The position numbers and the translations under genes are program-made. A stretch of 64,000 nucleotides of DNA, taken from positions 1 through 64,000 of the forward strand of contig JAFVWY010000009.1 in the NCBI GenBank assembly GCA_017501465.1, in the 5' to 3' direction. Below, in pieces: positions 1,456-20,695 of this stretch. Within the stretch, counting starts at the first letter, position 1. The number at the start of each line of letters is the position of its first letter. The notes under the pieces were generated by a model that was not told where the DNA came from, made no database searches, and saw only the letters and a list, made by a program, of their open reading frames with translations. The stretch is from Bacilli bacterium. GTDB taxonomy: Bacteria; Bacillota_I; Bacilli_A; ML615J-28; CAG-313.

Positions 1456-1486
1456 TTTACTCATAATTAATCACTTTATGTAATAT
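1456..1486 (+). promoter_or_regulatory. possible promoter for the cysteine genes
   Basis: TTTACT at 1456-1461 and TAATAT at 1481-1486 are separated by 19 bp, longer than ideal, just upstream of the TTG start at 1505. This is a weak match seen by eye only. Confidence 0.3.
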
Positions 1487-1504
1487 TATGTATTGGTGAT
1501 TTAA

Positions 1505-2305: not shown

Positions 2306-2801
2306 GTATATAAAGTCGATTAAAGAAAGAGACCCGGCCATGAAATCTAGCTTACAAATACTATTGTTTAATAATAGTGTTAAGGTAATGTTTTGGTATA
2401 GAATTGCTCATTTTTTATATATACGTAAATTTAAATATTTAGCATTCTATATTATGAATAAAGTCAAAAAAAGAACCGGAGTAGAGATACATCCGGCTTG
2501 TTCAATAGGGAAAAATTTGCTTATCGACCATGGGGTTGGAGTTGTAATTGGGGAGACTTCAGTCATTGGAAATGACTGTACAATCTATCAAGGAGTGACT
2601 TTAGGAGGTACAGGGAAAGAAAGAGGTAAGAGACACCCAACCATTGGCGATAATGTGATGATTGGAGCAGGTGCAAAAATACTAGGAAATATTTATATTG
2701 GTAACTTTGTAAAAGTAGGAGCGAATGCTGTAGTATTAGAAAATATAGGTAGTTTAAATACTGTTGTTGGGTGTAAAGGAAAGGTTGTAGAAAGGTTATA
2801 A
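2292..2801 (+). CDS. cysE: serine O-acetyltransferase
   Basis: Transfers acetyl from acetyl-CoA to L-serine, the first step of cysteine synthesis. The short form (169 aa from ATG 2292) has an N-terminal helical segment with ERDPAMKSSLQ, the membrane-like stretch VMFWYRIAHFLY, and then a left-handed beta-helix of hexapeptide repeats. The conserved catalytic segments are EIHPACSIGKNLLIDHGVG, VVIGETSVIG and YQGVTLGGTGKERGKRHPT. An in-frame ATG at 2262 exists, but the product from 2292 matches family N-termini better and AGGT lies just upstream. The gene overlaps the cysK-like gene by 14 bp, implying translational coupling. Confidence 0.92.
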   Translation: MWLNKYIKSIKERDPAMKSSLQILLFNNSVKVMFWYRIAHFLYIRKFKYLAFYIMNKVKKRTGVEIHPACSIGKNLLIDHGVGVVIGETSVIGNDCTIYQGVTLGGTGKERGKRHPTIGDNVMIGAGAKILGNIYIGNFVKVGANAVVLENIGSLNTVVGCKGKVVERL

Positions 2802-2807
2802 AATCGG

Positions 2808-2836
2808 TTGCTTTTTTGTTGTAAAATTGATATGAT
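2808..2836 (+). promoter_or_regulatory. promoter of the 2868 gene
   Basis: TTGCTT (2808-2813) and TATGAT (2831-2836) are spaced exactly 17 bp, starting 6 bp after the cysE stop. A strong AAAGGAG ribosome site follows at 2851-2857. Confidence 0.65.
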
Positions 2837-2867
2837 ATAGGGGCGTAAAAAAAGGAGATAAAAAAAT

Positions 2868-3953: not shown

Positions 3954-3962
3954 AAGCAAAGT

Positions 3963-3997
3963 AAAAGGTTAATGTCAAAACATTAACCTTTTTTTAT
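3963..3997 (+). terminator. Rho-independent terminator
   Basis: A 12-bp stem (3963-3974 with 3981-3992, containing AAGGTTAATG), a 6-base loop and a run of T. It ends the monocistronic unit. Confidence 0.85.
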
Positions 3998-4072
3998 TAT
4001 TTTCATAAAATAAAAATGAAGAATTTTAGCATATCGTATTTTGTGAAAAAAGGTCTAAAAATGCACAAAAAG

Positions 4073-4101
4073 TTCTAATTATTAAGGCAATATGATAAAA
4101 T
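4073..4101 (+). promoter_or_regulatory. candidate promoter of the SipW/TasA-like locus
   Basis: An extended -10 TGATAAAAT (4093-4101), the same element seen before the genes at 20800 and 58377, with a poor -35 TTCTAA (4073-4078) at 17 bp. About 66 bases of leader separate it from the first ATG. The rest of the 214-bp gap holds the preceding terminator and no other clear signal. Confidence 0.5.
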
Positions 4102-4167
4102 TACTAATGTAAGCTAGGAAAGCTTTATGGTCTTATAAAATGACCTTAAATAAAAGGAGAAAAAAAT

Positions 4168-4857
4168 ATGAAAAGAAGAACTTTAACAATAGTTGTTGGT
4201 TTATTATTAACACTATCTTTAGTTGGCGTTGGTTTCGCGAGCTGGGTAATTTCAGCAAAAGACGAAGAAACTATTATTGGTAATGTAGAAGTACAAACAG
4301 TTACTGATAGACGTTTAGATATTACAGTAAAAAGCTTAAGCTATGCTGGTACAGATCCTGATTATTTAGTTGCTGGCGATTCTAATAAAATTATTTTTGG
4401 TATGCCATCAGATGGAGAAATGGCAACAATATTAAATCCATGGTTAACAAATGATAATGAAGCAAAAGAAAATTTGCAAGTTTCATTTACTGTTGAAGTG
4501 GCATATAAAACTGTAGCTGATATTTCTTCAAGTGATATTACATTTGAAGCTGAACATGTAATTGGTGCTGGTGTTCAAGGATTAATTGATGCAGAATATT
4601 TAGAAGCAAAAGAAGTAGAAGTAGTTGAAGTTGTAAATGATAATGCTACAGGCGATGCTGAAGATACTAAAAAAGTTACATATACAGTTACTTTAGAATT
4701 TGATTGGGGGAAAGATTTTAATAATGAAAACCCATATTTATTCTATAATAAGTTAGATGTTGCTGAATATGGTGATGAAGCATATGCCGCTTTGAATGCT
4801 ATTAATGGTTTAGAAGGCTTTACATATACTTTAAAGCTAACAGTAGATAAAAAATAA
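4168..4857 (+). CDS. SipW-dependent secreted TasA/CalY-like protein
   Basis: A 229-aa exported protein. Its N-terminus is charged, then hydrophobic (residues 6-24), then GFASWVISAKDEE. The G-x-x-x-W arrangement near the cleavage region is typical of substrates of ER-type SipW signal peptidases (compare TasA, with its Trp just after the hydrophobic core). The mature start contains IIGNVEVQTV, repeated in two other proteins of this locus. The rest is acidic and beta-rich (Val/Thr alternation; VTYTVTLEFDW) with no Cys, as expected of a fibre or matrix subunit. It is the first gene of the unit, preceded by AAAAGGAG. Polymerisation into fibres is inferred from the TasA family and the adjacent SipW gene, not shown by sequence. 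Confidence 0.75.
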   Translation: MKRRTLTIVVGLLLTLSLVGVGFASWVISAKDEETIIGNVEVQTVTDRRLDITVKSLSYAGTDPDYLVAGDSNKIIFGMPSDGEMATILNPWLTNDNEAKENLQVSFTVEVAYKTVADISSSDITFEAEHVIGAGVQGLIDAEYLEAKEVEVVEVVNDNATGDAEDTKKVTYTVTLEFDWGKDFNNENPYLFYNKLDVAEYGDEAYAALNAINGLEGFTYTLKLTVDKK

Positions 4858-4893: not shown

Positions 4894-5709
4894 ATGGCAA
4901 GATTAACAAAAAATGGCTATAAAAGAAAGATGATCGTATTTGGTGCTTTCTTATTTATGTCAATTGCATTAACAGTTACTGGTTTTGCTGCATGGGTTAT
5001 GTCAACTAATGCAAAAAGTGAAGGTGCTGGAAATGTTGAAGTTGGTGTAGTTGCAGAAGGCAATCTTACAATTACTTTAGATGATGATGTAGAATTTGGA
5101 AACTTTTCTTTTGAACCAGTTCAAGGTGATATTTCAGGACGTGTTCGTCAAGAAAAGGATCCAGATGGTGAAGGGCCATTAGTGGCACCGTATGAAAATT
5201 TGAGTTTAACTATTAGTGGTAAAGTTGGCCCAGTTGAATATTTAGATACTTTCACATGTGAAATAGTTTTACCTCAAGGTTTTGCTAAAGCTGTTGAATT
5301 AAATTATATTGTTTTACCAGAAGGCACACAAACAACAAACTCTGATGGTACTATTTCTATTGTAAAAGAAATTTCTTTACCAGCTGGTGCTGCTACTGGA
5401 GAAAAAGAATTTGAAGTTACAATCGAATTTGGTTGGGGTTCTGCTTTCCAAGTTATTGAAGGCGGAGCTGCTGAAAATTTAAATCCGAGTGAATATTTTG
5501 ATCACGAATTAAGTTTTGCAGCTGATAAATATCCAGATACTGCTGAAGGTAACGCAAATGTTAAAAAAGTTTTAGAAGATTTAAGAGCTTGTGTTTATAA
5601 TTATTATACAGAATTAAATGCTGATGGCGCAAACCGTGAAGATGTAATATCTGATCACAAAGATGATGTTCTAAAATATAAAGTTGTTTTAACAGCTACA
5701 GCTAACTAG
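4894..5709 (+). CDS. SipW-dependent secreted TasA/CalY-like protein 2
   Basis: A 271-aa paralogue of the preceding product. The signal has a basic start (KNGYKRK), a hydrophobic core (about residues 14-30) and GFAAWVMSTNAKSE. The mature region begins GAGNVEVGVV, matching the IIGNVEVQTV of the first protein. The body is acidic and beta-rich, with a shared VTIEFGWGSAFQ segment (compare VTLEFDWGKDFN in the first protein), so the two align end to end. It ends 8 bp before the signal peptidase gene. Two related subunits followed by their peptidase resemble the tasA/tapA-sipW arrangement of biofilm operons. Major/minor subunit roles are a guess. Confidence 0.75.
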   Translation: MARLTKNGYKRKMIVFGAFLFMSIALTVTGFAAWVMSTNAKSEGAGNVEVGVVAEGNLTITLDDDVEFGNFSFEPVQGDISGRVRQEKDPDGEGPLVAPYENLSLTISGKVGPVEYLDTFTCEIVLPQGFAKAVELNYIVLPEGTQTTNSDGTISIVKEISLPAGAATGEKEFEVTIEFGWGSAFQVIEGGAAENLNPSEYFDHELSFAADKYPDTAEGNANVKKVLEDLRACVYNYYTELNADGANREDVISDHKDDVLKYKVVLTATAN

Positions 5710-5717: not shown

Positions 5718-6725
5718 ATGACTACAACTGAAATTATTTCACTTATAGTTACACTAATTGGAATAATCAGTTTTTCTTCAATATTTACAATTTTATATGG
5801 AAATTATGCTTCAATGACCATGAATGAAATTCGTTCTGGTAAAAAAGATATCGAGCTAATAGACGAAATTATTTATCAGAATAGAGAAAATGTTATTAAG
5901 CGTAGAAAGGTTTGGGGCTACATTAAATCTGTAGCCTTTTATCTTTCAATGGCGATAATAGTTCCTATATTTATCTTTTCTGCTATTAGTAAGTTCACTA
6001 ATAATCCATTTGTTGTAGGTAATAAAGCAATAATGGTTGTTGCATCGGGTTCTATGAGTGAAAAACACAATGTTAATGACTATTTGGTTACTAACGGTTT
6101 AGATAATCAATTTGATAAATATGATATAATAATTCTTGAAAAAGTTAAATCTCCAGTGGATATTAAATTGTATGATGTAGTTGCATATACGAGGGAAGAT
6201 GGCGTAAACATTATTCACAGAATTGTAAGTTTGAATCCTGATGGAACGTATGATACTAAAGGGGACGCTAATGAAGCTGTGGATCCAGAACATCCTAGAT
6301 ATGCCGATATATTAGGGGAATATACTGGTAAGAAAATAAAAACAGTAGGGATATTTATAATGTTTTTTCAATCATACTCAGGTATGATAACTATTTTATC
6401 ATTAGTATATTGTGTATTAATGCTAGATAGAATTTCTAATAAAATTAATAAAGTTCAAGATGAAAGAGCTGATTATTTAGAAGGCGTTTTTGATTTCACT
6501 AATGTTGAAAATAATAAAATGATTAATGCAGATTATTCAGAAGTTATTTATTATCAAGGATACGAATATCATTTTAAAAATGAAAAGTTTGTTGATAAGG
6601 TTGAAATTAATGATGAACCTTTAAATCAAAAAGTACAAGATACAATGATTAAAGAGATTGTTACAGATGATTCTAAAATTGTTGTAGAAAAAGTTATTGA
6701 AAAAGAAAATAATATGGGAGAATAA
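5718..6725 (+). CDS. sipW: signal peptidase I, SipW (ER) type, with cytoplasmic tail
   Basis: Removes signal peptides from exported TasA-like proteins at the outer face of the membrane. Membrane segments lie at about 5-28, 70-93 and 207-230. The catalytic Ser is S112 in ASGSMSEKH, and H167 in IIHRIVS replaces the bacterial Lys, which defines the ER/SipW type. KGDANEAVD supplies the conserved GDxN box. At 335 aa it is much longer than usual SipW (about 190 aa). The extra about 100 residues after the last membrane helix are charged and probably cytoplasmic. Position directly after two substrate genes and 3 bp before the AAA+ gene indicates co-translation. The signature makes this a firm call; the tail has no known counterpart to my knowledge. 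Confidence 0.92.
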   Translation: MTTTEIISLIVTLIGIISFSSIFTILYGNYASMTMNEIRSGKKDIELIDEIIYQNRENVIKRRKVWGYIKSVAFYLSMAIIVPIFIFSAISKFTNNPFVVGNKAIMVVASGSMSEKHNVNDYLVTNGLDNQFDKYDIIILEKVKSPVDIKLYDVVAYTREDGVNIIHRIVSLNPDGTYDTKGDANEAVDPEHPRYADILGEYTGKKIKTVGIFIMFFQSYSGMITILSLVYCVLMLDRISNKINKVQDERADYLEGVFDFTNVENNKMINADYSEVIYYQGYEYHFKNEKFVDKVEINDEPLNQKVQDTMIKEIVTDDSKIVVEKVIEKENNMGE

Positions 6726-6728: not shown

Positions 6729-8531
6729 ATGAAAAGACCATTTTATACAAGAAAAGATTTAATTAAAATATCTCTTGCATTCTTTTACTCATTTCTTTTA
6801 ATGTTTGTTGGCATGTGCATTGAAACAGGTAATTCTTTTATCAGTAAAAGAAATCCGTTTATGGAATTTGCTAAGCTTTTAAATTTTAAAAGTATTGAAT
6901 GTGGAGTATCAGGATATATCTTTTTATTATTAGTTGCAATTTATGTATCTTTATTTGTATCTTTGTTCTTATACGAAAAAAGATATGCAATTGTAAATAA
7001 TAAAAAACCATTTGGCAGTAAGATGCTACTTACTTATTTATATTCATTTTTAGCTTGTAGTATTTTATCATTTGGTTTAGGGATTGTTATTCAACGTCCA
7101 TTAACTGGTGAAAACATTGGTAATGCTTTACTATTTATATGGCAAGCGGTTTTACTAACTACTATAGTTTATGTATTATTAGTTGCATTTATTGGTGGAA
7201 TTATAATGTTTATTATTAATTTCATTTTAATAGATAAACCATTTAAAGCTTTTGAAGACAATAATGAAATTGTGGCTGAAATCGAAGATGATCCAGAAGT
7301 TGATGTTGCAAATAGTTTTGATGTTGATGCAAATATGAATGCTGGATTAGGTACTGGTGGTTTTGGCGGTATTGCTGGCGCTGCTGGCGGTGGAGAACAA
7401 AGTGTAGTTAGATCTGCTGAAGAATTAGATGATAGAGAAAAAGTTTTCCCAGGACTATCTACTATTGATGTAGATTATTCTGGATATGCGATAGATAGAA
7501 TTGAAACAGATAGTTATAGTTTAGAAGAAATTTGTATTAAATTTAGAAACTATCTTGCTAAAGAAGAAAAATTGTATTTTGATTTAGATACAATTAGATA
7601 TTTTGTGAGTGCTTTTGGTACAACACATTTTATGATTTTAGAAGGTTTGTCTGGTACTGGTAAATCAAGTTTGCCTCGTTATTTTGCAAAGTTCTTAAAT
7701 GCTGAGGTTTTATTCATTCCTGTACAAGCGACTTGGAGAGATAGAACAAATTTAATAGGGTTCTTTAATGAGTTTTCAAAGACATATACAGAAACAGAGT
7801 TTTTGTTAAATTTATATGAGGCAAATTATAATCCTGATAAACTTCATTTCTATGTTTTAGATGAAATGAATATCTCACGTATTGAATACTATTTTGCAGA
7901 TTTCTTATCTGTTTTAGAGTACCCTGTAGAAGACTGGAAATTAAAGGTTATGCAATTACCATTTAACTTTATACCTCCAGCTAAATTAAATGAAGGTATT
8001 ATTCAAATACCTGAAAATTCATATTTTGTTGGTACTGCAAATAAGGATGACTCTACTTTTACTATTACTGACAAAGTATATGACCGTGCTATTACTATTG
8101 ATTTTGACAATCGTAATGAGCCATTTGAAGTTAATGATGAAGTATCAACTATTAACATTAGTGCTAGTTTTTTAAAACAATCATATGAAGAAGCTAGACA
8201 AAATTCCGACAATCAGTTAACTGCTGAAGATTTAAATAAATTTACTAAAATTACAGATTACATTTATGATCAATTTGATATTACATTTGGTAACCGTATT
8301 CTTACTCAAATTGAGAGAATAGTTCCTGTGTTTGTTCAATGTGGCGGTAAGAAAGAAGATGCATTAGATTTCTTACTTTCTAGAAAAGTAATCAGTAAAA
8401 TAGAAGGTAGATTTGAAGAATACGTTAAAGGTGCCTTAAAAGAACTTTTACAATTGTTGGAAACAACATACGGAAAAGGTGTTTTTAAACGTAGCGAAAA
8501 AACTATTAATGGTTTAATGAGAAGGTTATAA
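6729..8531 (+). CDS. membrane-anchored McrB-like AAA+ ATPase
   Basis: A 600-aa protein. About four hydrophobic segments lie in residues 10-166, followed by an acidic and Gly-rich linker (about 170-240, including GTGGFGGIAGAAGGG) and a helical segment. The AAA+ domain has Walker A GLSGTGKSS at 306-314 and Walker B YVLDEMN at 375-381. TANKDDST corresponds to the sensor-1 Asn (GTANKDDSTF), and DRAITIDF is typical of the McrB/dynein-like clade. Members energise McrBC restriction when paired with a nuclease, but no nuclease is present here. The neighbours are a SipW peptidase upstream and a zinc-ribbon protein 4 bp downstream, so a role in moving, assembling or quality-controlling surface proteins is inferred. 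The Walker motifs are certain, the role is not. Confidence 0.8.
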   Translation: MKRPFYTRKDLIKISLAFFYSFLLMFVGMCIETGNSFISKRNPFMEFAKLLNFKSIECGVSGYIFLLLVAIYVSLFVSLFLYEKRYAIVNNKKPFGSKMLLTYLYSFLACSILSFGLGIVIQRPLTGENIGNALLFIWQAVLLTTIVYVLLVAFIGGIIMFIINFILIDKPFKAFEDNNEIVAEIEDDPEVDVANSFDVDANMNAGLGTGGFGGIAGAAGGGEQSVVRSAEELDDREKVFPGLSTIDVDYSGYAIDRIETDSYSLEEICIKFRNYLAKEEKLYFDLDTIRYFVSAFGTTHFMILEGLSGTGKSSLPRYFAKFLNAEVLFIPVQATWRDRTNLIGFFNEFSKTYTETEFLLNLYEANYNPDKLHFYVLDEMNISRIEYYFADFLSVLEYPVEDWKLKVMQLPFNFIPPAKLNEGIIQIPENSYFVGTANKDDSTFTITDKVYDRAITIDFDNRNEPFEVNDEVSTINISASFLKQSYEEARQNSDNQLTAEDLNKFTKITDYIYDQFDITFGNRILTQIERIVPVFVQCGGKKEDALDFLLSRKVISKIEGRFEEYVKGALKELLQLLETTYGKGVFKRSEKTINGLMRRL

Positions 8532-8535
8532 TAAT

Positions 8536-9795
8536 ATGAAAATCATCGAAGAAAACAAACTTAATCAACAAATTAATATCATTAATGAATTTACACAAAA
8601 TAAGTCTATTAAAGAATATTTTGATTCAATAAGTTCATTACAAATATCATCTTTACAAGATATTTCATTTGAGGAAGATATTGCTTTCTTCGATGAAGTT
8701 TCATTTATACTTAGTGTTATTGCATCAATTATAAATCATCCTCATCTTACAAATAAAGCTGAAGACATTATTATAAGATCTGAACTTGCTGGTAGTATTC
8801 CAGCAGATGCATTTAATCAAGTTGTAAAAGAGCCAATTTTGTGGCGTGAAAAAGATTATGAAATGGTTCCTGAAAATGTACATTATTATGAATATACAGA
8901 TGAACTTAAGATATATGAAAATATATTTATTGTTATGTTAATCAAACTAATTAGTACTGAAATGGATAAGTATTTATCATTTTATGTTTCTAAGATTCCG
9001 TCATTTACAAATAGCAAAGATACTTTGTTGAATACTAAAGATGTAGAAATTGCTTTAAATAAAATAGATAAAATAATTAAACGTATATCATTTATTAAAG
9101 ATACTTTCTTCTTTAAAGAGGTATCTAAAGCAAAGGTAACTTTTAAATATGTACAACCCACAAATATTTTAACGAAAAATAGATTATACAATTTATGTTT
9201 TAAGTTTTATAAAAAGTTTATTAAATACGAAGATCAAGACACACTAATAAATGATTTAGGAATTTTTTATTTCAATTTACTTTTGAAAAAATGTAAAGAA
9301 AAGAACTTTATTTTAGATGAATCTAAGAATCAAAGTTTAGAAGATTTATCATTTCACTATAATGATTATGATGTAAATGTTAAATTAAATAATAGTTTAC
9401 ACAAAATAGAATTACTAATTAATGACAATAATGTTATCAAACATAATTTATGGTTTAATTTAGAAAGAAAAAATAATAATTATGCATTCACAAAAAATGA
9501 TGCATATACAGATTATGTAATTTCCGCGTGGAATTTAAATAATTTAAGTAACTTAACGCAAGAGTTATTTAATACAGTCCAATGTGAATCTAATTTAATA
9601 GAGCACTGGTTAAATCTTCATTTTATGGAGACTGTTGGCAGTAAATTAGTATATTCTAGATATTGCCCTATATGTAAATCAAAAGAGATAGTTGAGGATA
9701 ATGGTTTATTTAATTGTTCCTCATGCGGCAGTATATATAGATTTAAAAATAATAAAGAAGAAGATAGAATTTGGTTTATCAGACTAAGGGGGTAA
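8536..9795 (+). CDS. AAA+ partner protein with C-terminal zinc ribbon (DUF2357-like)
   Basis: A 419-aa soluble protein adjoining the McrB-like ATPase. No signal or membrane segment. The N-terminal half is mostly helical; a region with VPENVHYYEYTDELKIYENIFIV recalls DUF2357-type proteins commonly encoded beside McrB-like ATPases, and this is a weak resemblance. The C-terminus has a clear zinc ribbon, C377-P-I-C380 and C394-S-S-C397, spaced like rubredoxin-type knuckles. No PD-(D/E)XK nuclease motif was seen, so it does not look like McrC. It probably forms a complex with the ATPase on the cytoplasmic face. The substrate is unknown. Confidence 0.6.
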   Translation: MKIIEENKLNQQINIINEFTQNKSIKEYFDSISSLQISSLQDISFEEDIAFFDEVSFILSVIASIINHPHLTNKAEDIIIRSELAGSIPADAFNQVVKEPILWREKDYEMVPENVHYYEYTDELKIYENIFIVMLIKLISTEMDKYLSFYVSKIPSFTNSKDTLLNTKDVEIALNKIDKIIKRISFIKDTFFFKEVSKAKVTFKYVQPTNILTKNRLYNLCFKFYKKFIKYEDQDTLINDLGIFYFNLLLKKCKEKNFILDESKNQSLEDLSFHYNDYDVNVKLNNSLHKIELLINDNNVIKHNLWFNLERKNNNYAFTKNDAYTDYVISAWNLNNLSNLTQELFNTVQCESNLIEHWLNLHFMETVGSKLVYSRYCPICKSKEIVEDNGLFNCSSCGSIYRFKNNKEEDRIWFIRLRG

Positions 9796-9799: not shown

Positions 9800-10549
9800 A
9801 TGCAACAAAATATTATAAAAGATGAACGTAAAGTAACAGTCAGTATAAATAATTTATATAAGTCTTATGGAAAAAAAGATGTTATTTTGGGTTTAGATTT
9901 AGAGGTCTATGAAGGCGAATTATTTGGATTTTTAGGCCGTAATGGTATTGGGAAATCAACAACCATTGATTGTATGATTGGAGCTAAAAAGTTCTCTAGT
10001 GGTAATATTTTGGTTAATGGTTTCGATATTAAAGAGTTTCCACTTGAAGCTAAAGAATCATATGGTTATGTTTCAAGTGAACCTACTTGCTATGAAGAAA
10101 TGACCGGATATGAATATTTAGAGTTTGTAGCTAGTGTTTATAAGTTAAGTGAACTTAATTTTGAAAAAAATTACAAATACTTATGTAACAGATTACAATT
10201 AAAACTTGAAGAGTTATCAAATCCCATTTCAGATTATTCTCATGGTATGAAACAAAAACTATGCTTAGTGGCTAGTCTATTACATAACCCTAAAGTATGG
10301 ATTCTAGATGAACCTACTGTAGGGCTTGATATAATGGCTGTTGAAGAATTGAGAAAAATGATGAGAGAGTATGCAAATCATAATAATACTGTTTTTGTAA
10401 CTAGTCATAACATCGATTTAGTTGCTAAACTATGTGATAGAGTTGCCATTATTAATGATGGTAAAGTTGCTGCATTATATGATCTAAATAGAGACCCAAA
10501 CAAGAGACTTCAACTAGGTAAAATCTTCTTCGATACTTATGGAGGTTAA
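9800..10549 (+). CDS. ABC transporter ATP-binding protein
   Basis: A 249-aa ATPase of an ABC-2-like exporter. Walker A GRNGIGKST lies at about residues 49-57 and the Q-loop region is around YVSSEP. The signature YSHGMKQKL replaces the canonical LSGGM, as in drug/lantibiotic-type importer-exporter ATPases. Walker B WILDEPTVGLD and H-loop VTSHN are intact. The permease gene starts 3 bp after its stop. Its place between the AAA+ pair and the surface-protein genes suggests it serves the same export or assembly function; bacteriocin immunity or lipid export are alternatives. Confidence 0.88.
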   Translation: MQQNIIKDERKVTVSINNLYKSYGKKDVILGLDLEVYEGELFGFLGRNGIGKSTTIDCMIGAKKFSSGNILVNGFDIKEFPLEAKESYGYVSSEPTCYEEMTGYEYLEFVASVYKLSELNFEKNYKYLCNRLQLKLEELSNPISDYSHGMKQKLCLVASLLHNPKVWILDEPTVGLDIMAVEELRKMMREYANHNNTVFVTSHNIDLVAKLCDRVAIINDGKVAALYDLNRDPNKRLQLGKIFFDTYGG

Positions 10550-10552: not shown

Positions 10553-12145
10553 ATGTTAACCCTTCTTGTGAAAGATTTTAAATTAATGTTTGGAAAACAA
10601 AAAGGACTTGCTAGGCAAATCCTTAAGATTCTTTTTTCTATCTTTTTTATAGCTTGTTTTATTGGTATAGAAGTTTTCTTATTTGTAACAATCTTAAAAA
10701 AGATAGGAAATATTCATCAAGCTACAACTGCATTTGTTACAATTTTCTTAACAATTATATCAGTTGTAATTATATTTTCAAATTTATTTAATGCATTTAA
10801 ATTATTTTTTAATGAGAAAGATATAGAACAGTTATCAGTTCATCCTGTTAGCAACAGTTCAATTATCTTTTCAAAATTGATATTTCTGTTTCTTACTCAT
10901 TATGCGACATGTTTTATAGTTGCTTATCCTATCTTTGTCGCATATGGTCAATTACATTTTATGCCAATCAAATTTTATTATCTAGGATTATTTTATCCGA
11001 TGGTTACATTCTTATTTGAATCTGGTATTGCTTTATTGTTTGTTTACCCATTCTATATTCTAAAAAAATGGTTGAAGAAACATTTGATGGTTAAATTTAT
11101 TTTTAATGTTATTATTTTATTTGTCGGATGCTATTTATATTCCAAGGTATTAAATGTGTTTATAGAAATTATTGCTGGTAATAGTTTTAATAGTTTATTA
11201 AATGATCAAAATATTGGTATTATAATTCAACTTAAAAAATATATATTTCCAATCAATTTATTAACGGATGTTTTCTTTGCAAAAGCAACTACAAACTTTC
11301 TACCCGCTTTATGCATAGGCCTTGGTGTTTTTATGCTAGGGGTTAGCATTTGTATATTCGCATTTAATTATGTAAGAAATATTTCATATTCTAGAAATAA
11401 TAAAGTTAAAGAGTATACACCTAAAACTACATCTGTTATTAAAAGTTTATTTAAAAAAGAAATTACAATATTGCTTAAAAATGCGGATTATACTTTTTCT
11501 TTTACTACATTATTATTAGTTCAACCATTTTTAGCGCTTTTAGTAATTAAGGCATTAAACACTATTTTTACAACTGGTGTATTTTCTTATTATATTTCAG
11601 TTGTACCGAATTTTATACCATTAATGAATGTATTGATACTTATGCTATTTTCTACAATAATTGCTCAAGGTGCCAATACTTATATTCAAAATGAAAAAAC
11701 TACAATAAAATTGATGAAAACTATCCCTGTTAATAGTACAAAGCAATTGTTAGTTAAAGTATCAATACCATTTTTAATGTCATTTATTTCGCTATTGATT
11801 ACTAATTTGGTTTTATTATTTACAGGTAATATTAGTTTTATAACATTTATATTTTGCTTATTAATAGTTACAGCTCTATTGGTTATTTTTGATTTAATCT
11901 CTTTATATGAAGAATTAAATATTAGACACCATAAGCCAAGATCAACATTTGTTTCAAACATGATAACATATATAGTCCCATTTACTTATTTTTTTGTAAC
12001 TGCTGTTTTATCTTATTTTGGTCTAAAATTAATATTAGCATTTATCATTGGTCTTTTAGTTGTAATTATAATTGGAATTCCATTTGTAATTTATCTAAAA
12101 AAACATATCGAAAGTTTATTTATGGATTTGGATGTGATTAATTAA
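10553..12145 (+). CDS. ABC transporter permease, ABC-2-like
   Basis: A 530-aa integral membrane protein with roughly 10-12 hydrophobic segments in two similar halves, separated by a basic loop (about 275-300, KVKEYTPKTTSVIKSLFKKE). The KLMKTIPVNSTKQLLVKV motif is typical of putative ABC exporter permeases of 500-600 aa in Bacillota. With the preceding ATPase it makes a complete transporter. The stop codon TAA shares its last base with the ATG of the next gene, a sign of translational coupling to a surface protein. The substrate is unknown. Confidence 0.82.
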   Translation: MLTLLVKDFKLMFGKQKGLARQILKILFSIFFIACFIGIEVFLFVTILKKIGNIHQATTAFVTIFLTIISVVIIFSNLFNAFKLFFNEKDIEQLSVHPVSNSSIIFSKLIFLFLTHYATCFIVAYPIFVAYGQLHFMPIKFYYLGLFYPMVTFLFESGIALLFVYPFYILKKWLKKHLMVKFIFNVIILFVGCYLYSKVLNVFIEIIAGNSFNSLLNDQNIGIIIQLKKYIFPINLLTDVFFAKATTNFLPALCIGLGVFMLGVSICIFAFNYVRNISYSRNNKVKEYTPKTTSVIKSLFKKEITILLKNADYTFSFTTLLLVQPFLALLVIKALNTIFTTGVFSYYISVVPNFIPLMNVLILMLFSTIIAQGANTYIQNEKTTIKLMKTIPVNSTKQLLVKVSIPFLMSFISLLITNLVLLFTGNISFITFIFCLLIVTALLVIFDLISLYEELNIRHHKPRSTFVSNMITYIVPFTYFFVTAVLSYFGLKLILAFIIGLLVVIIIGIPFVIYLKKHIESLFMDLDVIN

Positions 12146-14592
12146 TGAAGAAGAAGAATTTAATAATTTTATTATTTATTCCATTTTTTATTGCTTTACT
12201 TGGTGTTGTTACAATTAATACTACATTTAGTTTTGTAGATAATGACATCCTTGGGATTAGATGGAATTATAATGACATGGAGGGTTTCAAAGTAAGTGAA
12301 GAGTTATATAAACTTGAAGCTCAAGGAATCAATCAAAAGAATTATCCAGCAGGTAAAGGTAATGGTTTAGTGTGGTCTGTTAAAAATAAAGTGCAAGGTG
12401 ATACTGAAGTTCATGCAGAAATTATTAGACAAGGTGTCACTTATTATTTAAAAGCCATTTCTACTGGTGAGGTTATAATTACTTGTTCAAATGAAAAAGG
12501 GAATATTTCTAAGTCGATGAATGGAGTCATTTATGAGAATGGGTTAATATTAATTAATCCTGTGATTAAGTTATCATCAAGTGGTTTAGAATGTCCTATC
12601 TATTATGGCCAATATGATTTAAATAATAATAGTAAAGTTCAAGCTAATGTTGAATTTAACATTACAACAATACCTGAACTTTTAAAAGAAGAAATTAGAG
12701 TTGAAAATGTTACAAGCAATATTAGTTTTGATTTAAATTCTGGTAATGTAAAAATTATTGGGGAAGGTAGAGCGTCATTTACAATTGGATGCACTGATAA
12801 AACAAAAGCTGATTCTCGAACTTTTGATTTTAATATTGTAAAAGATGGTGTAAATGTTTATACATATAATGATTTATTGTATTGTACAAATTATTCTGAT
12901 AATGGTGAAATAGTTGTTCTAAGAAAATCATTTGAATCCTTAGATAATGCATATGAATTTACGAATAATGGTGAAGTATTTACCCTTGATGGTGTCCCAA
13001 AAACAATAGAAAATAATGTTGAATGTTTTGGTAATTATGATGTTAAAAATAAAACATTTAATTTCGATAATGAAATTTACAAATTTGAAACAACTTATAA
13101 CAGTGAATATATTGATCAATGGAATCAATATGTAAAATCTCTTGGTAAGAGTAGAATAATAAAAAAAGATATTAATGTTGGGCTAAGAATTCAAAAAGAT
13201 TTTTATGGTAATGGATATTCTATAAATATGCATAACTTGGCATATCCAACTGGTACAACGACTGTTACAGCAAACGGTCAAAATATTACAGTTGCAGAAT
13301 ATACTGGAAAAGATATATTTAAGGGTCCGCTTCCGTTTTATACATTAGGTGACCATACTAATGAACCTTTGGTTGAAGCTTATGGACAAGATAATATCGG
13401 AATGTATATTGATGGTGATGGAATTATTGTTAATAGAGTTAATATTAGAAATTGTGATTTTGGAGACATTTTACAAAATTTAAGATATGTTGGAACTGTT
13501 ATAGAAACAAATGGCGATAATATACAAATTAAAAATTCTAAAATTTCAAACGGAAAAAATGTTATTAGAAGTTTTTCTTCTATGAATTTACTTTTAGAAA
13601 ATTGTCATTTGTCTAATTCAATGAACTTTTTAGTTACTTTGGGTAGTAATGAATATTTTAGTATTAATGATTCTGAAATTTATGATTTTATAGATTTAGA
13701 TGGTAATGTAATCAGAACATCTATTAGTGAATTTTTTAAAGAAGATGGAAAAGCGGATGCAATTTTAAATACTTATATTAATGGTCAATTTACTGATAGT
13801 GATAAAATGAGAACTTCACTTTTATCAATGCAGAAAGCATTTAACGCTGTTGCTGATGATTTAAATGAGTATAAGGGCTCAGTAAAAATTAAGGATTCAT
13901 ATTTTAGTTCTAGTGGTATTGCCTCTATTGCTTTAGAAGCAATGTTCAATGGTCCTTTCTTAAATTATTCTGCACCTAGTGAGATTGCAAAATTATTAGG
14001 TACATTACAATCAAGTACAGGGTTACAACTTGAAAACTTTAGAGCAAATAATATTGCTGGTGTTGCTTATCCTGTTTTAGTAGAAATTTGTGGAGATACA
14101 AGATTTTATGATTATAAAGATATCGCCAATGTTGACATTAGTGGACTAATTGGAGAACATATATCTTCATATGCACAATCTTATGTACCGGGGATATCTA
14201 CAGAAATTAATATTGATAAGATTTTCCCAATCAAACAATATTTAGTAAATGCTGCTAAAGCAAACGGAAACATTTATGTTAGTGAAGAAAAACAATATAT
14301 TAACATCCCTATAGCTTACTATGGTGGTGGTTTAAATTTATCTACAGTAAAATATGGAGATGGATTTAACAAAGAAAATATTGGGAAAAAAATTGAAGTG
14401 AATTTTTTAGAAAATTATTTAGCTTATGGAGAAGGCGAAGGTCTTCAAGCTATTAAAAATAAATTATTAAAAGCAGTAACAATAGTTACTGGATATGAAT
14501 CATTCTATTTTGAATGTGTAAAAAATAATGGTTATTTATTTAATGAAATACCACAGGATTCAGATTTGACATCTAGAGTCGAGGAGGAATAA
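12145..14592 (+). CDS. membrane-anchored surface protein with beta-helix region
   Basis: An 815-aa protein. One N-terminal hydrophobic segment (about residues 4-32) acts as signal or anchor. A beta-rich region with Ig-like character follows (about 50-235). From about residue 350 to 640 the alternating Asn/Gly/Ile pattern (YGNGYSINMHNL, GDGIIVNRVNIRNCDF, IQIKNSKISNGKNVI, LLLENCHLSNSMNF) indicates a right-handed parallel beta-helix, as found in adhesins and polysaccharide-binding proteins. No catalytic residues could be identified. The gene overlaps the ABC permease by one base. It may be a cargo or scaffold of the surface structure; an enzyme acting on glycans is possible. Confidence 0.6.
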   Translation: MKKKNLIILLFIPFFIALLGVVTINTTFSFVDNDILGIRWNYNDMEGFKVSEELYKLEAQGINQKNYPAGKGNGLVWSVKNKVQGDTEVHAEIIRQGVTYYLKAISTGEVIITCSNEKGNISKSMNGVIYENGLILINPVIKLSSSGLECPIYYGQYDLNNNSKVQANVEFNITTIPELLKEEIRVENVTSNISFDLNSGNVKIIGEGRASFTIGCTDKTKADSRTFDFNIVKDGVNVYTYNDLLYCTNYSDNGEIVVLRKSFESLDNAYEFTNNGEVFTLDGVPKTIENNVECFGNYDVKNKTFNFDNEIYKFETTYNSEYIDQWNQYVKSLGKSRIIKKDINVGLRIQKDFYGNGYSINMHNLAYPTGTTTVTANGQNITVAEYTGKDIFKGPLPFYTLGDHTNEPLVEAYGQDNIGMYIDGDGIIVNRVNIRNCDFGDILQNLRYVGTVIETNGDNIQIKNSKISNGKNVIRSFSSMNLLLENCHLSNSMNFLVTLGSNEYFSINDSEIYDFIDLDGNVIRTSISEFFKEDGKADAILNTYINGQFTDSDKMRTSLLSMQKAFNAVADDLNEYKGSVKIKDSYFSSSGIASIALEAMFNGPFLNYSAPSEIAKLLGTLQSSTGLQLENFRANNIAGVAYPVLVEICGDTRFYDYKDIANVDISGLIGEHISSYAQSYVPGISTEINIDKIFPIKQYLVNAAKANGNIYVSEEKQYINIPIAYYGGGLNLSTVKYGDGFNKENIGKKIEVNFLENYLAYGEGEGLQAIKNKLLKAVTIVTGYESFYFECVKNNGYLFNEIPQDSDLTSRVEEE

Positions 14593-14596: not shown

Positions 14597-15709
14597 ATGA
14601 AAGTAATATGCAGATTATTTTTAATTTGTTTAAGCGTTTTTCTAATTCAAGGTTGTGGATTCTTTAACACATCTGAGACATTAGAGATTGCTGATATTAC
14701 AGTTGAAAATTTAGAAAATGGAAATAAACAAGTAACAATTAATTATGTTGATGAATTTACAGATCCATTAGTATTTATAGTTCCCAAAGGAGACAAGGGA
14801 GATACAGGTAATGGCATTGGTGAAGTTACATATAAGCCTGTAGAAGGTGGAACAGAAATCACAATTAATTTTACAGCTGAAGGAACTAAGCCATTAATAT
14901 TTACTGTAAATAATGGTGTTTCAGTGACAAAAATAAAATCAAATTATGTTGCTGAAGAAGAAACTACATATATTCAATTTTTACTATCGGATGGTTCAGC
15001 CTCTGAAGTGTTTAAACTTCCAAAAGGTGAAAAAGGTGAAGATGGAGTTTCAATAATTGAAATCAAAGATACTACAAACAGAGATAAAAGTGTTACTTTA
15101 GATATTTTCTTAAGTGATGGTTCAAGTGAATCATTTACAATTCCTGCTCCTATTCAAGGAGAAGATGGAAATGGTGTAAAGGAAGTCAAGATTGAACCTT
15201 TAGATGATTTTGGCAATGTATATCAAATGATATTAAAATTAGATGATGACACTGAAATATCAACTCCAATTAAGAGAGTTAATAAGTGGTTTACAGATAG
15301 TGCCAATCCAGATCCTTCAATTGGAATTAAAGGAGATTTATATTACTGTACAACAAATAAAACTATTTATGTTAAAGAGTCAAGTGGTTGGACACCAAGC
15401 ATAGATTTAGATAAAATTTCAAATATAGCTTATGAAGTTAAATTTCATTTAAATGCTCCAGAAGATGACGACACTGCTAGTATGCCATCTGGAGTTAATG
15501 AAACATATTATATAACTCATGGTAAATATTTTTCTTCTAATGAAGATGGTGATCCAATTCCAGTTCCAACAAGCGATTTATATGAATTTGCAGGTTGGTA
15601 TACTGAAAAAGGAGATAAATTAAATTTAAATATCCATGGCCAATTTACTGATCTTACTGTTATTGCAGATAACTTGGACTTATATGCAAGATGGGTAAAA
15701 AAAGCTTAA
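14597..15709 (+). CDS. lipoprotein with collagen-like GXY stretches and InlB-type repeat
   Basis: A 370-aa exported lipoprotein: lipobox LIQGC with C20, lipidated and held on the outer face of the membrane. Three similar modules each alternate a beta segment with a short collagen-like piece (PKGDKGDTGNG, PKGEKGEDG, IQGEDGNG). A C-terminal Listeria-Bacteroides (InlB B) repeat spans about 280-367: YEVKFHLNAPE, then YEFAGWYTEKGDKLN, and ends LDLYARW. The GXY pieces are too short for a stable collagen helix and look like repeated linkers. Being lipid-anchored, it may tether the fibre-like or beta-helix proteins encoded around it. The lipobox and the repeat are firm; the tethering role is inference. 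Confidence 0.78.
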   Translation: MKVICRLFLICLSVFLIQGCGFFNTSETLEIADITVENLENGNKQVTINYVDEFTDPLVFIVPKGDKGDTGNGIGEVTYKPVEGGTEITINFTAEGTKPLIFTVNNGVSVTKIKSNYVAEEETTYIQFLLSDGSASEVFKLPKGEKGEDGVSIIEIKDTTNRDKSVTLDIFLSDGSSESFTIPAPIQGEDGNGVKEVKIEPLDDFGNVYQMILKLDDDTEISTPIKRVNKWFTDSANPDPSIGIKGDLYYCTTNKTIYVKESSGWTPSIDLDKISNIAYEVKFHLNAPEDDDTASMPSGVNETYYITHGKYFSSNEDGDPIPVPTSDLYEFAGWYTEKGDKLNLNIHGQFTDLTVIADNLDLYARWVKKA

Positions 15710-15733: not shown

Positions 15734-16414
15734 ATGTTGAAAAAAAGTAAAGTATATCTAATTATGTTTCTATGTGTATTATCTTCATTTAGCATAGGAT
15801 TTGCATCTTGGTCTATTCAAGGCGAAGTAGAAGAAAAGATCATTGGAAATGTTGATGTACAAAATGTTGTTAATAGCAAAGATTATATTTATTTGGATAC
15901 TACTAAAGGCGATAATAATTCTGGTATTGATTGGTTCGATTATGAAGAAACTGCATATCTAAATGATGATGGCATTACTTACAATGACACTGGTTATATT
16001 GATGCATTCTTTATAATTGATATCCAAAAATGCAAAGAGTTGTTTGGTACAGCTAATTCAATACAAGTAAAATTAACATTGAAATATCTAAATGATAATC
16101 CAACAGATTTAAATATTTTTGTTAATCATTCTAATAAAGATGGAAGAAGAACAATAAATAATACTGTTACTTGTGCAACAGAAACATTTACTTCAAGTGC
16201 AAATACAGTAAATCGTTCTTATGTCTTAACAATTACTTTTGATGATATTCTTTTAAAATATGCAAAAAATACAACTGCTACTACAATTCCATTTAATGTA
16301 CAATTTGCATTATTTGCTACAACAGGTCCTTACTTTAACAATAATATTTATAAATACTTAGAACAAGATAATATCGACTTTGCTCTTGGTGTAGAAATTC
16401 AAGGGATTGAATAA
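15734..16414 (+). CDS. third SipW-type exported protein
   Basis: A 226-aa secreted protein with the local export signature: hydrophobic core (about 7-24), GFASWSIQGEVEE, then IIGNVDVQNV, closely matching the first TasA-like protein of the locus (GFASWVI, IIGNVEVQTV). The mature part is Asn/Thr-rich and beta-rich, without Cys pairs of note. It lies 24 bp after the lipoprotein gene, with the ribosome site AAAGGGGTGAT. It is probably another subunit processed by the SipW encoded upstream; its divergence from the first two argues for a distinct position in the structure, such as tip or base (inference). Confidence 0.7.
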   Translation: MLKKSKVYLIMFLCVLSSFSIGFASWSIQGEVEEKIIGNVDVQNVVNSKDYIYLDTTKGDNNSGIDWFDYEETAYLNDDGITYNDTGYIDAFFIIDIQKCKELFGTANSIQVKLTLKYLNDNPTDLNIFVNHSNKDGRRTINNTVTCATETFTSSANTVNRSYVLTITFDDILLKYAKNTTATTIPFNVQFALFATTGPYFNNNIYKYLEQDNIDFALGVEIQGIE

Positions 16415-16429: not shown

Positions 16430-19400
16430 ATGAAAAAAATATTATTTACAATTTTGGCTTGTATACCTTTGCTGGTATTTATAGGTTATTCTACATGGAT
16501 TATCATGTATGAAGTTAGTATTACTCCATCTTATTTTGAAAATGAATTTTCTAATTATTTTGGTGTATCTCAAAGTACTACTTATAATGGTACTGAACAA
16601 GCGCCAGTTCAAATAAGTGGTGAAGCAATTGACACTTCTTTAATTTCTTATCAATACAAAAAAGAAACTGAATCTGAATATACAGATGGAAAACCAGTTT
16701 TTGCTGGTGTATATGATGTTATTGTTACGATTAAAGATCAAGGTCAATGTAATGTAAAATATACAATTAATAAGAAACAAATTAAATTAAAAATTACGAC
16801 TGTCGAATTAAACTATTTTTCTGGTCTAACTAATAATTTGTCCAACAGTCATATGGCAAATATTGTTCCTAAAATTGATGAGAAAATTGAATTTGTTGAC
16901 AATAAGAATCAAGCAGTTTCTACTTTTTTAGATAGAAATAAAGTCGAATGGGCTTTTACAAAAGCGAATGCTGCATTTACATATAGTTCTATGACGAATG
17001 GTACACATACTTTTAGTGTAAATGATACTTCCTCAAAAATTCCTGGAAGTACATACAAAATAGATATTACTTTAGATGAAGAAGTTTTAGATAATCATGA
17101 ATTTATTGGAAACAATTATATTATTTTAAAGTATAAATCAGCGATTACGAATGGTATTTATTATACGATTGAAGATGCTATTTTAAATCAAAGTGGAAAA
17201 ATTACTTTTATGGGTGATTCAACTAATGCTAACTCATATATAGAAACTCAATTTTGTGCTTTATCGTTAGAACAAGGATATCCATATACTAATTATACAA
17301 ATGAAACAATTGATGGTGTAATATATAAAACATTTAATGTTACAGTTCCACTATATGTTCCATATAATAGTTCGGATACTTTAACTGCTCAATCTACTAG
17401 TAGTGCAAACTTAGTTTATTCTGCATTAACAATATGCAGTGGTGTAAATTTAAAATTTAGCGGCGGAGCCGATGTTTATATATGTGGTATGTTGAATGGT
17501 ACAATGCCTAATAATGGCCTAATATCACATAAAGGTGTAATAATGAATAATGGTAGAATTACTGCCGAAAGCGGTACTTATATTTATTCATATGGACACT
17601 TAAAAGGTAAAGGCGATGTAATTTTAAAATCAGGATCTAGATTAATTGATATAATGAGATTTTATGATTGGCCTGGAGGAAGTAATGCTTCATCTTTGGT
17701 CTCTAATGGTTTTCCAATAATCATATGGAATATTCATTCGGCTTCATGTAATGTATATATTTATAAAGGTGCTGAATTATATGGCTTTACTGCAATTGAA
17801 GTATCTTTATTGGGTTATAGAACAGCAGAATTTTGTGTTATTGGAGGTTCTAGTAGTACAGGTACATGCTTGTTTAGACCAACATCATCGGCTATTTCAA
17901 CTGACTATATTTTGAAGAAAGGCACAAGTGAAAATGATTCAATTAACACCTCAATTGCTGAATCAAATCAAACTTTAGGGCAAAGAGATATTATTGAAAT
18001 TCATGGAGATTATGAAGATAATACATTTAAGATTAGTTTAAGTGGTGCTAATTTTCAAAGTTCTACAACTAAACCAGCTCCATTTCCATTTTTTGATATA
18101 ACAATTTGTGAAAATTCAAAACTTAATATATCTAAGTCATCTTATGCGTTCTTAGCTGGGACATCTTTAACTGTTGAGAAAAATGCAATATTAAATGTTG
18201 GGTCTGGTGCTTATATGGCATTTGATACATATTCTAATGGGACTTATGGGATAACTCCTTATTTTTCTGGTTTTTGCAAAAATAAGAATGACGCTTTGCT
18301 AATTGTTAATGGAACTGTAGAAGGAACAGGAGCTATTGGGGGCAAAGTAATTACTAAAGATGAAGGCGCGGTAATTTCATGTATAACAAAAATTGATACT
18401 ATCAAAATTAAAGATGGAGCTCCTGGTTCTGCAAGTATAATTACGGTAGCTACTAGTCCTTATTATGCAACAGGATCTATAGGTAATGAAACGGGGTATA
18501 CTCCAAATCAAAAGTTTGCAGACCAAACATCTACATCTTTTATATCTACTACATTAGATGATAATAAACCGGTCAATGAAAGAGAATATTTCTTTACAAC
18601 TCCTGATGATGTTAAAACTTTTTATTTATATTTTCATGACCCTGAAGAAGGCAATGAAGAGATAGGAAGTTCGAAAATTTTCGTTCTTAAAACTGATGAA
18701 AATGGATTGTATAAATATATAATTACTGGTGGGGAGTTTAATACTACAAAGCTTCATAAAGATATAGACTATTGGATATTATCAGATGGAAGTCTAGCAA
18801 AAGATAAAATTCTTTATGATGGAACTAAATATGATAGAGAAAATACAAATGAAATTAATTTATATGCTGTTTGGAAAGATCACACTTATACTTTTGTTTA
18901 TACTTCAGGATATATAGATAAAGATAGTAATGTCGTTACTGATGTAACTGCTGATACTGTTTTTGAAAATATCCTTGGAACATTTACAATATCTGATTTT
19001 ATAAATGATAATTTAGTAATTACAACAAAGGCTTCATATGAAAATAAAATATTTAAAGGATGGTACATTGGCATTGATGACTCAATAGGTGTTCAAATAT
19101 CGTCAATATCTAAAACTAATTTAGAAAAGTATATAAATGAAACTGGTATGGATGTAATTCCATTATATTGTCAGTTTTCAGAAGATACTTATACAATAGT
19201 TTTTAGCGATAATCATCCATCTTTATCTTTTTCTAATATCTTAGTAATGCAAGATGATAATTTAATTTTACCTGATACAAGTACTATTGATACTAATCCA
19301 GATGAATCACAATATTGTTCTTCATGGTATGTTGGAAAGGAAGATACTAGTAAGATTACTCTGATTGATAATGATATTTTGACACCAGCTAAATTAGTTC

Positions 19401-20695
19401 AATATGATGAGTTAGATGGAAAAATTGATAAGATAATTAATATTTATGGTGATTGGACTGATAAAGAATTTACAATCAATTATTATAACAATAATGATGA
19501 AGTAGAAAAAAAACATTATTTTAATGAATATTATCGAGGTGAAAAACAAAGTGTAGCACTTTATGATGCTTCAACTGATTCAGACTTTAATAAACCTGAA
19601 GAGAATGATACTTATGGATGTATTTATACATTTGATGGTTGGAGCGTTTCTTCTGATCGAACATCGAAAGATTATGAAGCTGGTATAAATTTATCTCCTT
19701 CTGGATCAATAAATTTATACTCGCATTATCTTGAACAATATTTTTATGAAGTAACAATTACTGCTAGTAATGCTACAGTTAAAATTGACGGAGTTGATGT
19801 TAGTAATACTAAAAAAAGATATGAGGTTTCATCACCGACTGAGACCTTAAGTATAACTTATGTTGTAACTACTGATGCTAATGAAAAATTAAGTATATCT
19901 GATACCTCTGGAAATAGCTACAACGGTAGCCCGGGCGGGCAAGCAAGTTCATATACTTTGACTTTAACAGGTAACAAGGGTAGTATTTCTGCAACTGGTA
20001 CAAATAGCTGTATAACTTCTGGTACATTAATTACAATGTATGATGGGACTTTAAAACCTGTAGAAGATGTTACATTAGATGATGTATTACTTGTATACAA
20101 TCATGAAACTGGATCTTATGATTTCGCAAATATCATTTTTATTGAAAACAATGGTTGGAAAAATTATGAAGTTATAAATTTGGTTTTCTCTAATGGGCAA
20201 ACTACTAAAATTATATATGAACATGGCTTCTATGATTTAGATTTAGACGAATATGTATATATAGACTCAAATAATTATAATGATTATATTGGTCATAGTT
20301 TCTATCTTACAGAATATAATAATGGAATATATTTAGATGGTAATGTTACTTTAATTGATGCATATATCACAAATGAATATATAGGTTGCTATTCATTAGT
20401 AACAGTATATCATTTGAATTATTTCACTGACAATTTATTATCAATGCCTGGTGGTATAAGTGGTCTATTTAATATCTTTGAAATGAATGATGATTTAACA
20501 ATTAATCAGGATCAAATGATCGAAGATATTGAAAAATATGGTTTATACACTTATGAAGATTTCAAAGATTATGTTCCATACGAAGTATATGCTGCATTCC
20601 CTGCACCATACTTTAAAGTAGCAGTAGGGAAAGGATATATTACTTGGGAAGGAATCTTAGGATTAATTGATATATACTTAAGTAAAATGGTATAA
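16430..20695 (+). CDS. giant surface protein: MBG-like, beta-helix, InlB repeats, C-terminal Hint domain
   Basis: A 1421-aa protein. The N-terminal signal ends GYSTWIIMYE, the SipW-type G-x-x-x-W pattern. Residues about 45-125 resemble an MBG-type domain (TYNGTEQAPV). A long Gly/Ser/Thr beta-helix-like region follows to about 690. About four degenerate Listeria-Bacteroides repeats lie at 740-1110 (marks: NLYAVW, FKGWYIG, CSSWYVG, YTFDGWSV, NLYSHY). From C1194 a Hint domain begins: NSCITSGTLITMYDGTLKPV, then DVLLVYNHETG, TKIIYEHGFYD and SLVTVYHLNYFTD. That is the order of Hint blocks in bacterial intein-like and pre-toxin Hint domains. No Asn-Cys/Ser splice junction is seen, so autocleavage at or before C1194, perhaps with attachment of the N-part to a nucleophile, is more likely than splicing. 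It is the last gene before a strong terminator. Confidence 0.75.
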   Translation: MKKILFTILACIPLLVFIGYSTWIIMYEVSITPSYFENEFSNYFGVSQSTTYNGTEQAPVQISGEAIDTSLISYQYKKETESEYTDGKPVFAGVYDVIVTIKDQGQCNVKYTINKKQIKLKITTVELNYFSGLTNNLSNSHMANIVPKIDEKIEFVDNKNQAVSTFLDRNKVEWAFTKANAAFTYSSMTNGTHTFSVNDTSSKIPGSTYKIDITLDEEVLDNHEFIGNNYIILKYKSAITNGIYYTIEDAILNQSGKITFMGDSTNANSYIETQFCALSLEQGYPYTNYTNETIDGVIYKTFNVTVPLYVPYNSSDTLTAQSTSSANLVYSALTICSGVNLKFSGGADVYICGMLNGTMPNNGLISHKGVIMNNGRITAESGTYIYSYGHLKGKGDVILKSGSRLIDIMRFYDWPGGSNASSLVSNGFPIIIWNIHSASCNVYIYKGAELYGFTAIEVSLLGYRTAEFCVIGGSSSTGTCLFRPTSSAISTDYILKKGTSENDSINTSIAESNQTLGQRDIIEIHGDYEDNTFKISLSGANFQSSTTKPAPFPFFDITICENSKLNISKSSYAFLAGTSLTVEKNAILNVGSGAYMAFDTYSNGTYGITPYFSGFCKNKNDALLIVNGTVEGTGAIGGKVITKDEGAVISCITKIDTIKIKDGAPGSASIITVATSPYYATGSIGNETGYTPNQKFADQTSTSFISTTLDDNKPVNEREYFFTTPDDVKTFYLYFHDPEEGNEEIGSSKIFVLKTDENGLYKYIITGGEFNTTKLHKDIDYWILSDGSLAKDKILYDGTKYDRENTNEINLYAVWKDHTYTFVYTSGYIDKDSNVVTDVTADTVFENILGTFTISDFINDNLVITTKASYENKIFKGWYIGIDDSIGVQISSISKTNLEKYINETGMDVIPLYCQFSEDTYTIVFSDNHPSLSFSNILVMQDDNLILPDTSTIDTNPDESQYCSSWYVGKEDTSKITLIDNDILTPAKLVQYDELDGKIDKIINIYGDWTDKEFTINYYNNNDEVEKKHYFNEYYRGEKQSVALYDASTDSDFNKPEENDTYGCIYTFDGWSVSSDRTSKDYEAGINLSPSGSINLYSHYLEQYFYEVTITASNATVKIDGVDVSNTKKRYEVSSPTETLSITYVVTTDANEKLSISDTSGNSYNGSPGGQASSYTLTLTGNKGSISATGTNSCITSGTLITMYDGTLKPVEDVTLDDVLLVYNHETGSYDFANIIFIENNGWKNYEVINLVFSNGQTTKIIYEHGFYDLDLDEYVYIDSNNYNDYIGHSFYLTEYNNGIYLDGNVTLIDAYITNEYIGCYSLVTVYHLNYFTDNLLSMPGGISGLFNIFEMNDDLTINQDQMIEDIEKYGLYTYEDFKDYVPYEVYAAFPAPYFKVAVGKGYITWEGILGLIDIYLSKMV

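Follow-up and report, generated by a model that had tools for sequence, protein, structure and literature searches.

A membrane-anchored, nuclease-free McrBC-type pair coupled to SipW-type export genes in uncultured Bacilli

The window, by which we mean the whole 64,000-nucleotide stretch of DNA analysed here, encodes a membrane-anchored McrB-type NTPase and an McrC-type partner that lacks a nuclease, and the two genes are embedded in an operon for protein export. McrBC is otherwise known from DNA restriction. We favour, with moderate confidence, the interpretation that this pair is a nuclease-less McrBC machine serving the export or assembly of surface proteins processed by SipW, probably those of an extracellular filament. 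A role in the biogenesis of an exported filament is well supported by genomic context, and we infer a biochemical mechanism for it below. The analysis suggests that, in hundreds of uncultured gut bacteria, a motor of defence origin now serves the construction of the cell surface, an McrBC relative having lost its DNA-cutting part and gained a membrane anchor.

Organisation of the locus

All genes of the locus lie on the forward strand. The first two encode exported proteins with SipW-type signals: a TasA-like protein (4168..4857) in which an N-terminal transmembrane (TM) segment is followed by GFASW, with homologues in the corresponding position of related loci, and a second TasA-like protein (4894..5709) carrying a GFAAW signal. 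The AF2 model of the second is beta-rich (pLDDT 77), and solved TasA was absent from the PDB matches shown for it by Foldseek. Next comes a 335-residue SipW/archaeal-type signal peptidase I (5718..6725; NCBIfam TIGR02228, 1.6e-12; SipW, 1.9e-12) with the catalytic motif GSM...HRI. The 600-residue McrB-type protein (6729..8531) is separated from it by 3 bp and from the 419-residue McrC-type partner (8536..9795) by 4 bp, and the partner is followed by an ABC transporter ATPase (9800..10549; PF00005, 4e-23) and an ABC-2-like permease with about ten TM segments by hydropathy (10553..12145; PF12730, 0.006). These ORF coordinates agree with an earlier reading made from the sequence only, which had placed the pair 3 bp after a SipW gene and before an ABC exporter.

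Two more exported proteins complete the core order. One is an N-terminally anchored protein of 815 residues (12145..14592), a constant member of the cassette by synteny and co-occurrence (see below), and the other is a lipoprotein (14597..15709), also constant by synteny, with collagen-like GDKGDTG, GEKGEDG and GEDGNG stretches and a match to the Listeria-Bacteroides repeat (List_Bact, 9e-4). A third SipW-signal protein (15734..16414; FASW) resembles the product of 4168..4857. The variable end of the cassette is formed by a 1421-residue exported protein (16430..20695) with an N-terminal signal and homologues in some relatives; its C-terminal stretch resembles a Hint/intein-like domain (CITSGTLITMYDGTLKPVEDV...), with no Pfam or NCBIfam match.

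Elsewhere in the window, four exported proteins (23565-25937, 26903-29095, 47607-49778 and 52248-55592) end in Gly-Cys-(Ser/Gln/Met)-(Met/Ala), a hydrophobic stretch and KKR or RRR. These ends resemble a Cys-containing C-terminal sorting signal, and only one gave a match, a weak one, to Synerg-CTERM (E 0.022). At 2-1441, a RhuM-like protein is partly duplicated: the C-terminal halves of two neighbouring ORFs are nearly identical, and the C-terminal part matches VPA1262_N (9e-6).

A membrane-anchored McrB-type NTPase of the NxD branch

Hydropathy places four TM segments at the N-terminus of the McrB-type protein (residues 11-29, 63-81, 103-121 and 150-168; 6759..7232), and these are followed by a Gly-rich linker (residues ~205-232; 7341..7424) and a complete motif set spanning 7644..8051: Walker A GLSGTGKS (306-313), Walker B VLDEMN (376-381) and sensor-1 NKDD (438-441). 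The membrane segments, linker and Walker A/B core had all been recognised beforehand and are borne out here, the key residues of Walker A/B and sensor-1 being invariant or near-invariant across 16 relatives. Lys/Arg charges flank the TM segments: four precede TM1, five lie in the TM2-TM3 loop and four in the TM1-TM2 loop. This distribution suits an N-in, C-in topology in which the AAA+ domain would be cytoplasmic, although the charges of the TM1-TM2 loop fit less well.

Pfam returned AAA domains for this protein below threshold only. When a profile of the 16 relatives was compared with the PDB, its sole matches were to E. coli McrB (6hz4, 1.9e-6) and the similarity to McrB is therefore not a matter of chance. 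The sensor-1 segment GTANKDDST aligns gap-free with GTANTDEST and GTANHDETT of plasmid CoCoNuT-type proteins, where E. coli McrB has NTADRS. The NxD motif defines the McrB branch that contains the CoCoNuTs (PMC11090510), and the window protein has both features of that branch: the shortened NxD sensor-1, usually followed by D or E, and a homologous AAA+ core with Walker A/B accompanied by a DUF2357 partner. Proteins of the NxD subfamily are more likely to be GTPases than ATPases, so that of the initial description as an "McrB-like AAA+ ATPase" the McrB-like and AAA+ parts stand and the nucleotide probably does not.

An McrC-type partner with a zinc ribbon and no nuclease

A profile of 35 homologues aligns residues 52-260 of the partner (8689..9315) to the DUF2357 domain of CoCoNuT (CnuC) and methyltransferase-linked McrCs (99.5% probability, E 5e-23). 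The Pfam DUF2357 model scores 1.5e-11 in a partner of the sister type described below and 0.0012, under the cut-off, in the window partner. Against the PDB a profile of partners gave coiled-coil chance matches only. An AF2 model (pLDDT 86) has as its three best Foldseek PDB matches YdjA-YdiS and two McrC chains, which at E values of 0.01-0.16 are weak and only supportive of an McrBC-type fold. The canonical McrC model PF10117 matched in 0 of 43 genomes of the order.

Residues Y127, E128, N129, T209 and Y218 are invariant across the 35 homologues, as are the four cysteines of a C-terminal zinc ribbon, C377PIC380-x13-C394SSC397 (9664..9726). A PD-(D/E)xK motif is not conserved among the same 35 proteins, whereas it is plainly visible in E. 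coli McrC and four DUF2357-type McrCs used as positive controls. On this comparison we reject a hidden nuclease in the partner; the sequence-only reading, which had described a ribbon protein with no visible nuclease motif and had staked its secretion proposal on that absence, thus holds. Residues 260-375 may be a degenerate, dead nuclease fold. Type II CoCoNuT partners likewise combine an inactivated nuclease with a CPxC ribbon (PMC11090510).

Distribution, phylogeny and architectures of the relatives

A scan of GTDB species genomes confirmed relatives on at least 588 contigs, and the 80 matches listed come from metagenome-assembled genomes of uncultured Bacilli, Clostridia and similar bacteria. 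A relative is present in 82 of 392 sampled Bacillota genomes. Among 2.9 million viral contigs in IMG/VR none was confirmed, phage records gave two weak partial matches (the one examined belongs to a CoCoNuT-like gene set), and plasmids yielded no relative covering 80% of the McrB protein.

Two main architectures were found. The window type has an McrB of ~600 residues with four TM helices, and 39 of 40 partners carry the zinc ribbon. In the sister type, McrB is ~515 residues long with one TM helix and a charged helical stretch, the partner has a long, charged, helical C-terminus, and the ribbon is present in only 2 of 33 partners. By a crude measure of charged-helix residues the window McrB scores 0, and the partners of four-TM proteins have a median of 0 (66 for the window partner) as against 143 in the sister type. 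Neither the window nor the sister-type McrB has a Pfam DivIC/FtsB match; lacking it, the sister type, FtsB-like in layout, was rejected as an FtsB homologue.

Two further forms were seen. Tandem McrB-McrC-McrB triads (L176-L181, L187, L116, L118) adjoin a pair of very large proteins that are exported or anchored in the membrane, and in several triads the McrB copies are identical or almost so. An McrB relative of ~900 residues (L168-L175), paired with a ~515-residue DUF2357 protein bearing three CPxC zinc ribbons, stands mostly alone among housekeeping genes; at one locus (L170, positions 106-4451) it directly precedes a window-type cassette.

Phylogeny of the AAA+ domain, which had been named as a check on the secretion proposal, places the window protein in the NxD McrB branch and unites the secretion-linked types in one clade. 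A branch supported at 98/97 separates the window, sister, pilus-linked and tandem types from the CoCoNuT, methyltransferase-linked and ~900-residue relatives; within the first group the four-TM types and the pilus-linked type are joined at 100/99. The tree was built without E. coli McrB, the extreme branch length of which distorts it, and its rooting is tentative because the outgroup branches are long.

These architectures bear on a regulatory or co-translational alternative in which the zinc-ribbon McrC would bind mRNA or ribosomes and the membrane ring would localise or gate the translation of exported proteins. The invariance of the CPxC ribbon in 35 homologues and its occurrence in both the ~900-residue type and the CoCoNuT CnuCs would suit such a role, as would the RNA targeting predicted for CoCoNuTs (PMC11090510). 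The sister type, however, keeps the same operon partners mostly without a ribbon; the role that the two types share can therefore do without one, and we regard this alternative as unlikely.

Coupling to export and pilus genes

A SipW-type peptidase lies directly upstream of McrB at 34 of 38 four-TM loci and near the pair at 28 of 34 sister-type loci, as judged with a profile limited to the catalytic core, and the McrC partner is directly downstream of McrB at 38 of 39 four-TM loci. Only three genes for such a peptidase occur in the 1.56 Mb genome that the window comes from, and the probability that SipW and McrB adjoin by chance is therefore well under 1%. The order TasA-like (two genes), SipW, McrB, McrC, ABC ATPase, permease, 815-residue protein, lipoprotein is conserved in relatives as distant as ~35-40% identity. 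The pair is co-inherited with this cassette: across the 392 Bacillota genomes the 815-residue protein was found in 23 of 23 with a window-type McrB, assigned for this count by open-frame length, and in 2 of the 369 others (Fisher 3e-35).

A second, independent link is to type IV pili. In four species of Clostridia (L092/L210, L095, L096 and L098/L211) the four-TM McrB, with a ribbon partner wherever a partner was called, is linked with a type IV pilus operon. The pilus-linked pair directly follows the prepilins, PilD, PilC and PilB. In L098/L211, Pfam identified prepilins, an A24 peptidase, T2SSF/PilC and T2SSE/PilB, and sequence similarity did so in L210; L095 retains just the end of a PilB gene before the contig edge, and L096 has a PilM-like gene. 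Moreover, in genus g2 of the window's family, the site downstream of an oxaloacetate decarboxylase subunit holds the SipW-McrBC cassette in two species (G001 and G005), a type IV pilus operon in a third (G002) and BspA-LRR and List_Bact-repeat proteins in two others (G003 and G004; Pfam was run on G003). Because cassette, pilus operon and adhesins alternate there, the site appears to exchange surface-structure cassettes.

Four-TM pairs with no exporter neighbour do occur (L206, L209, L090 and L100), and they count against the export interpretation. The lone pairs L206 and L209, like the solitary ~900-residue type, would also be expected if the pair were an independent housekeeping or stress module that hitch-hikes in a hotspot of surface genes. 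Such a chance neighbourhood is very improbable given the 3-4 bp spacing, the gene order fixed over deep divergence, the perfect co-occurrence with the 815-residue protein and the separate pilus link.

We also considered membrane-located defence, in which McrBC would sense, at the envelope, phage DNA injection or appendage-targeting phages and trigger abortive infection, the surface proteins serving as bait or effector. The pair descends from the NxD McrB branch, whose CoCoNuT and methyltransferase-linked members lie with predicted defence genes, and the PADLOC candidate model PDC-M26A matches the window's AAA core at 1e-39; this listing as a defence candidate is unverified, and no paper explaining "PDC-M26" was found in the literature searched. 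The cassette is also patchy (4 of 15 genomes of the window's family), as accessory systems including defence often are. Both the candidate listing and the patchiness weigh against an export machine. On the other side stand the lack of a nuclease motif in the partner, the failure to confirm a relative in IMG/VR and the surface-gene alternatives at the g2 site. When PADLOC was run on 145 sampled neighbours, only mad3 and AriA matched recurrently, all others being single, and both of these models match the exporter ATPase itself; few defence matches are left, and we rejected a defence-island reading of the neighbourhoods. The sampled relatives thus lie in export or pilus operons rather than in defence islands, which, together with the missing nuclease site, upholds the proposal that the McrB-type protein is membrane-bound and coupled to secretion, not restriction. 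We judge membrane-located defence to have a low probability.

A possible role in surface assembly

We therefore return to export and assembly of SipW-processed proteins as the preferred interpretation. The term filament draws on what is known of SipW (PMC7395162, PMC13082335), on the type of signal and on the link to type IV pili; among the PDB matches shown for the second TasA-like protein there was no solved TasA, which counts against this interpretation. In the scheme we infer, four TM helices would anchor the AAA+ ring on the cytoplasmic side of the membrane, beside SipW and the ABC permease. By analogy with McrBC structures, McrB would form a hexameric ring with the DUF2357 stalk of McrC in its pore and stimulated, probably GTP, hydrolysis. 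The hydrolysis cycle could then power or gate the steps by which exported subunits are delivered, released or assembled, much as PilB acts on pilins, with the ring acting on or gating either the SipW substrates or the ABC-2 permease, as the context suggests. The zinc ribbon, which would occupy the position of the nuclease in restriction relatives, may bind a client or nucleic acid. To our knowledge, McrB-type rings that move proteins have no precedent, and this too counts against the scheme.

More tentatively, and with somewhat less than an even chance of being right, the whole clade may have left restriction, the McrB ring and nuclease-free McrC forming an energised assembly or gating platform for SipW filaments and, in some Clostridia, type IV pili. 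If correct, this would add a new NTP-driven step to Gram-positive appendage biogenesis and assign a function to a large unannotated family of gut-bacterial genes, and a widespread nuclease-free, membrane-bound McrBC branch tied to the export of surface proteins would be a case of a defence motor taken over for surface building. It would also caution that a match to McrB, such as that by which PADLOC counts the window's protein as a candidate, does not always signify phage defence.

Comparison with known systems

E. coli McrBC, a type IV restriction system, shares with the window pair a homologous AAA+ core and, by the weak Foldseek similarity, an McrC-like partner, but it has NxxD in place of NxD, and its DNA-binding domain and PD-(D/E)xK nuclease are absent here. 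CoCoNuTs (Types I-III) have the NxD[D/E] motif and a DUF2357 partner, with the ribbon and inactivated nuclease in Type II; in place of their extensive coiled coils, associated nucleases or helicases and defence contexts, the window pair has a TM-anchored McrB, a partner devoid of a nuclease and export genes around it.

SipW-dependent filament operons (B. subtilis tapA-sipW-tasA, B. cereus sipW-tasA/calY and C. perfringens sipW-bsaABCRSD) similarly combine a dedicated SipW peptidase with neighbouring genes for exported proteins that bear an AW-type signal, but no AAA+ or McrBC-type gene is described in them (PMC7395162, PMC13082335). Type IV pilus systems (PilB/PilC/PilD) also combine an NTPase ring, a dedicated peptidase and exported subunits, and some relatives lie inside such operons; McrB, however, is not a PilB/T2SSE ATPase and is present there besides PilB.

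The closest published systems are signal-peptidase-linked NxD McrB relatives, which Bell et al. (2024; PMC11090510) named CoCoPALM in a single paragraph, deferring their study to a subsequent paper. The linkage between NxD McrB and a signal peptidase is therefore already published; we found no later study of CoCoPALM, and no description of the four-TM architecture, the zinc-ribbon partner, the ABC/TasA-like cassette, the pilus variant or the appendage-exchange site. CoCoPALM has an NxD McrB-type NTPase with a membrane segment, a DUF2357 partner and a signal-peptidase-family neighbour, all present in the window. It probably belongs, with the FtsB-like sister type, to the 98/97 clade. The two differ in that CoCoPALM fuses an FtsB-like domain of one TM segment and a coiled coil to the NTPase, whereas the window protein has four TM segments and a Gly-rich linker and is free of charged helical stretches by the crude measure given above; the coiled coils of CoCoPALM are usually on both McrB and McrC, and in place of the long C-terminal one the window partner has a zinc ribbon. 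The window also adds an ABC-2 exporter and four or more constant exported proteins. The unexplained "pilus assembly" link of CoCoPALM becomes testable, and the window pair is an architectural variant of the CoCoPALM type.
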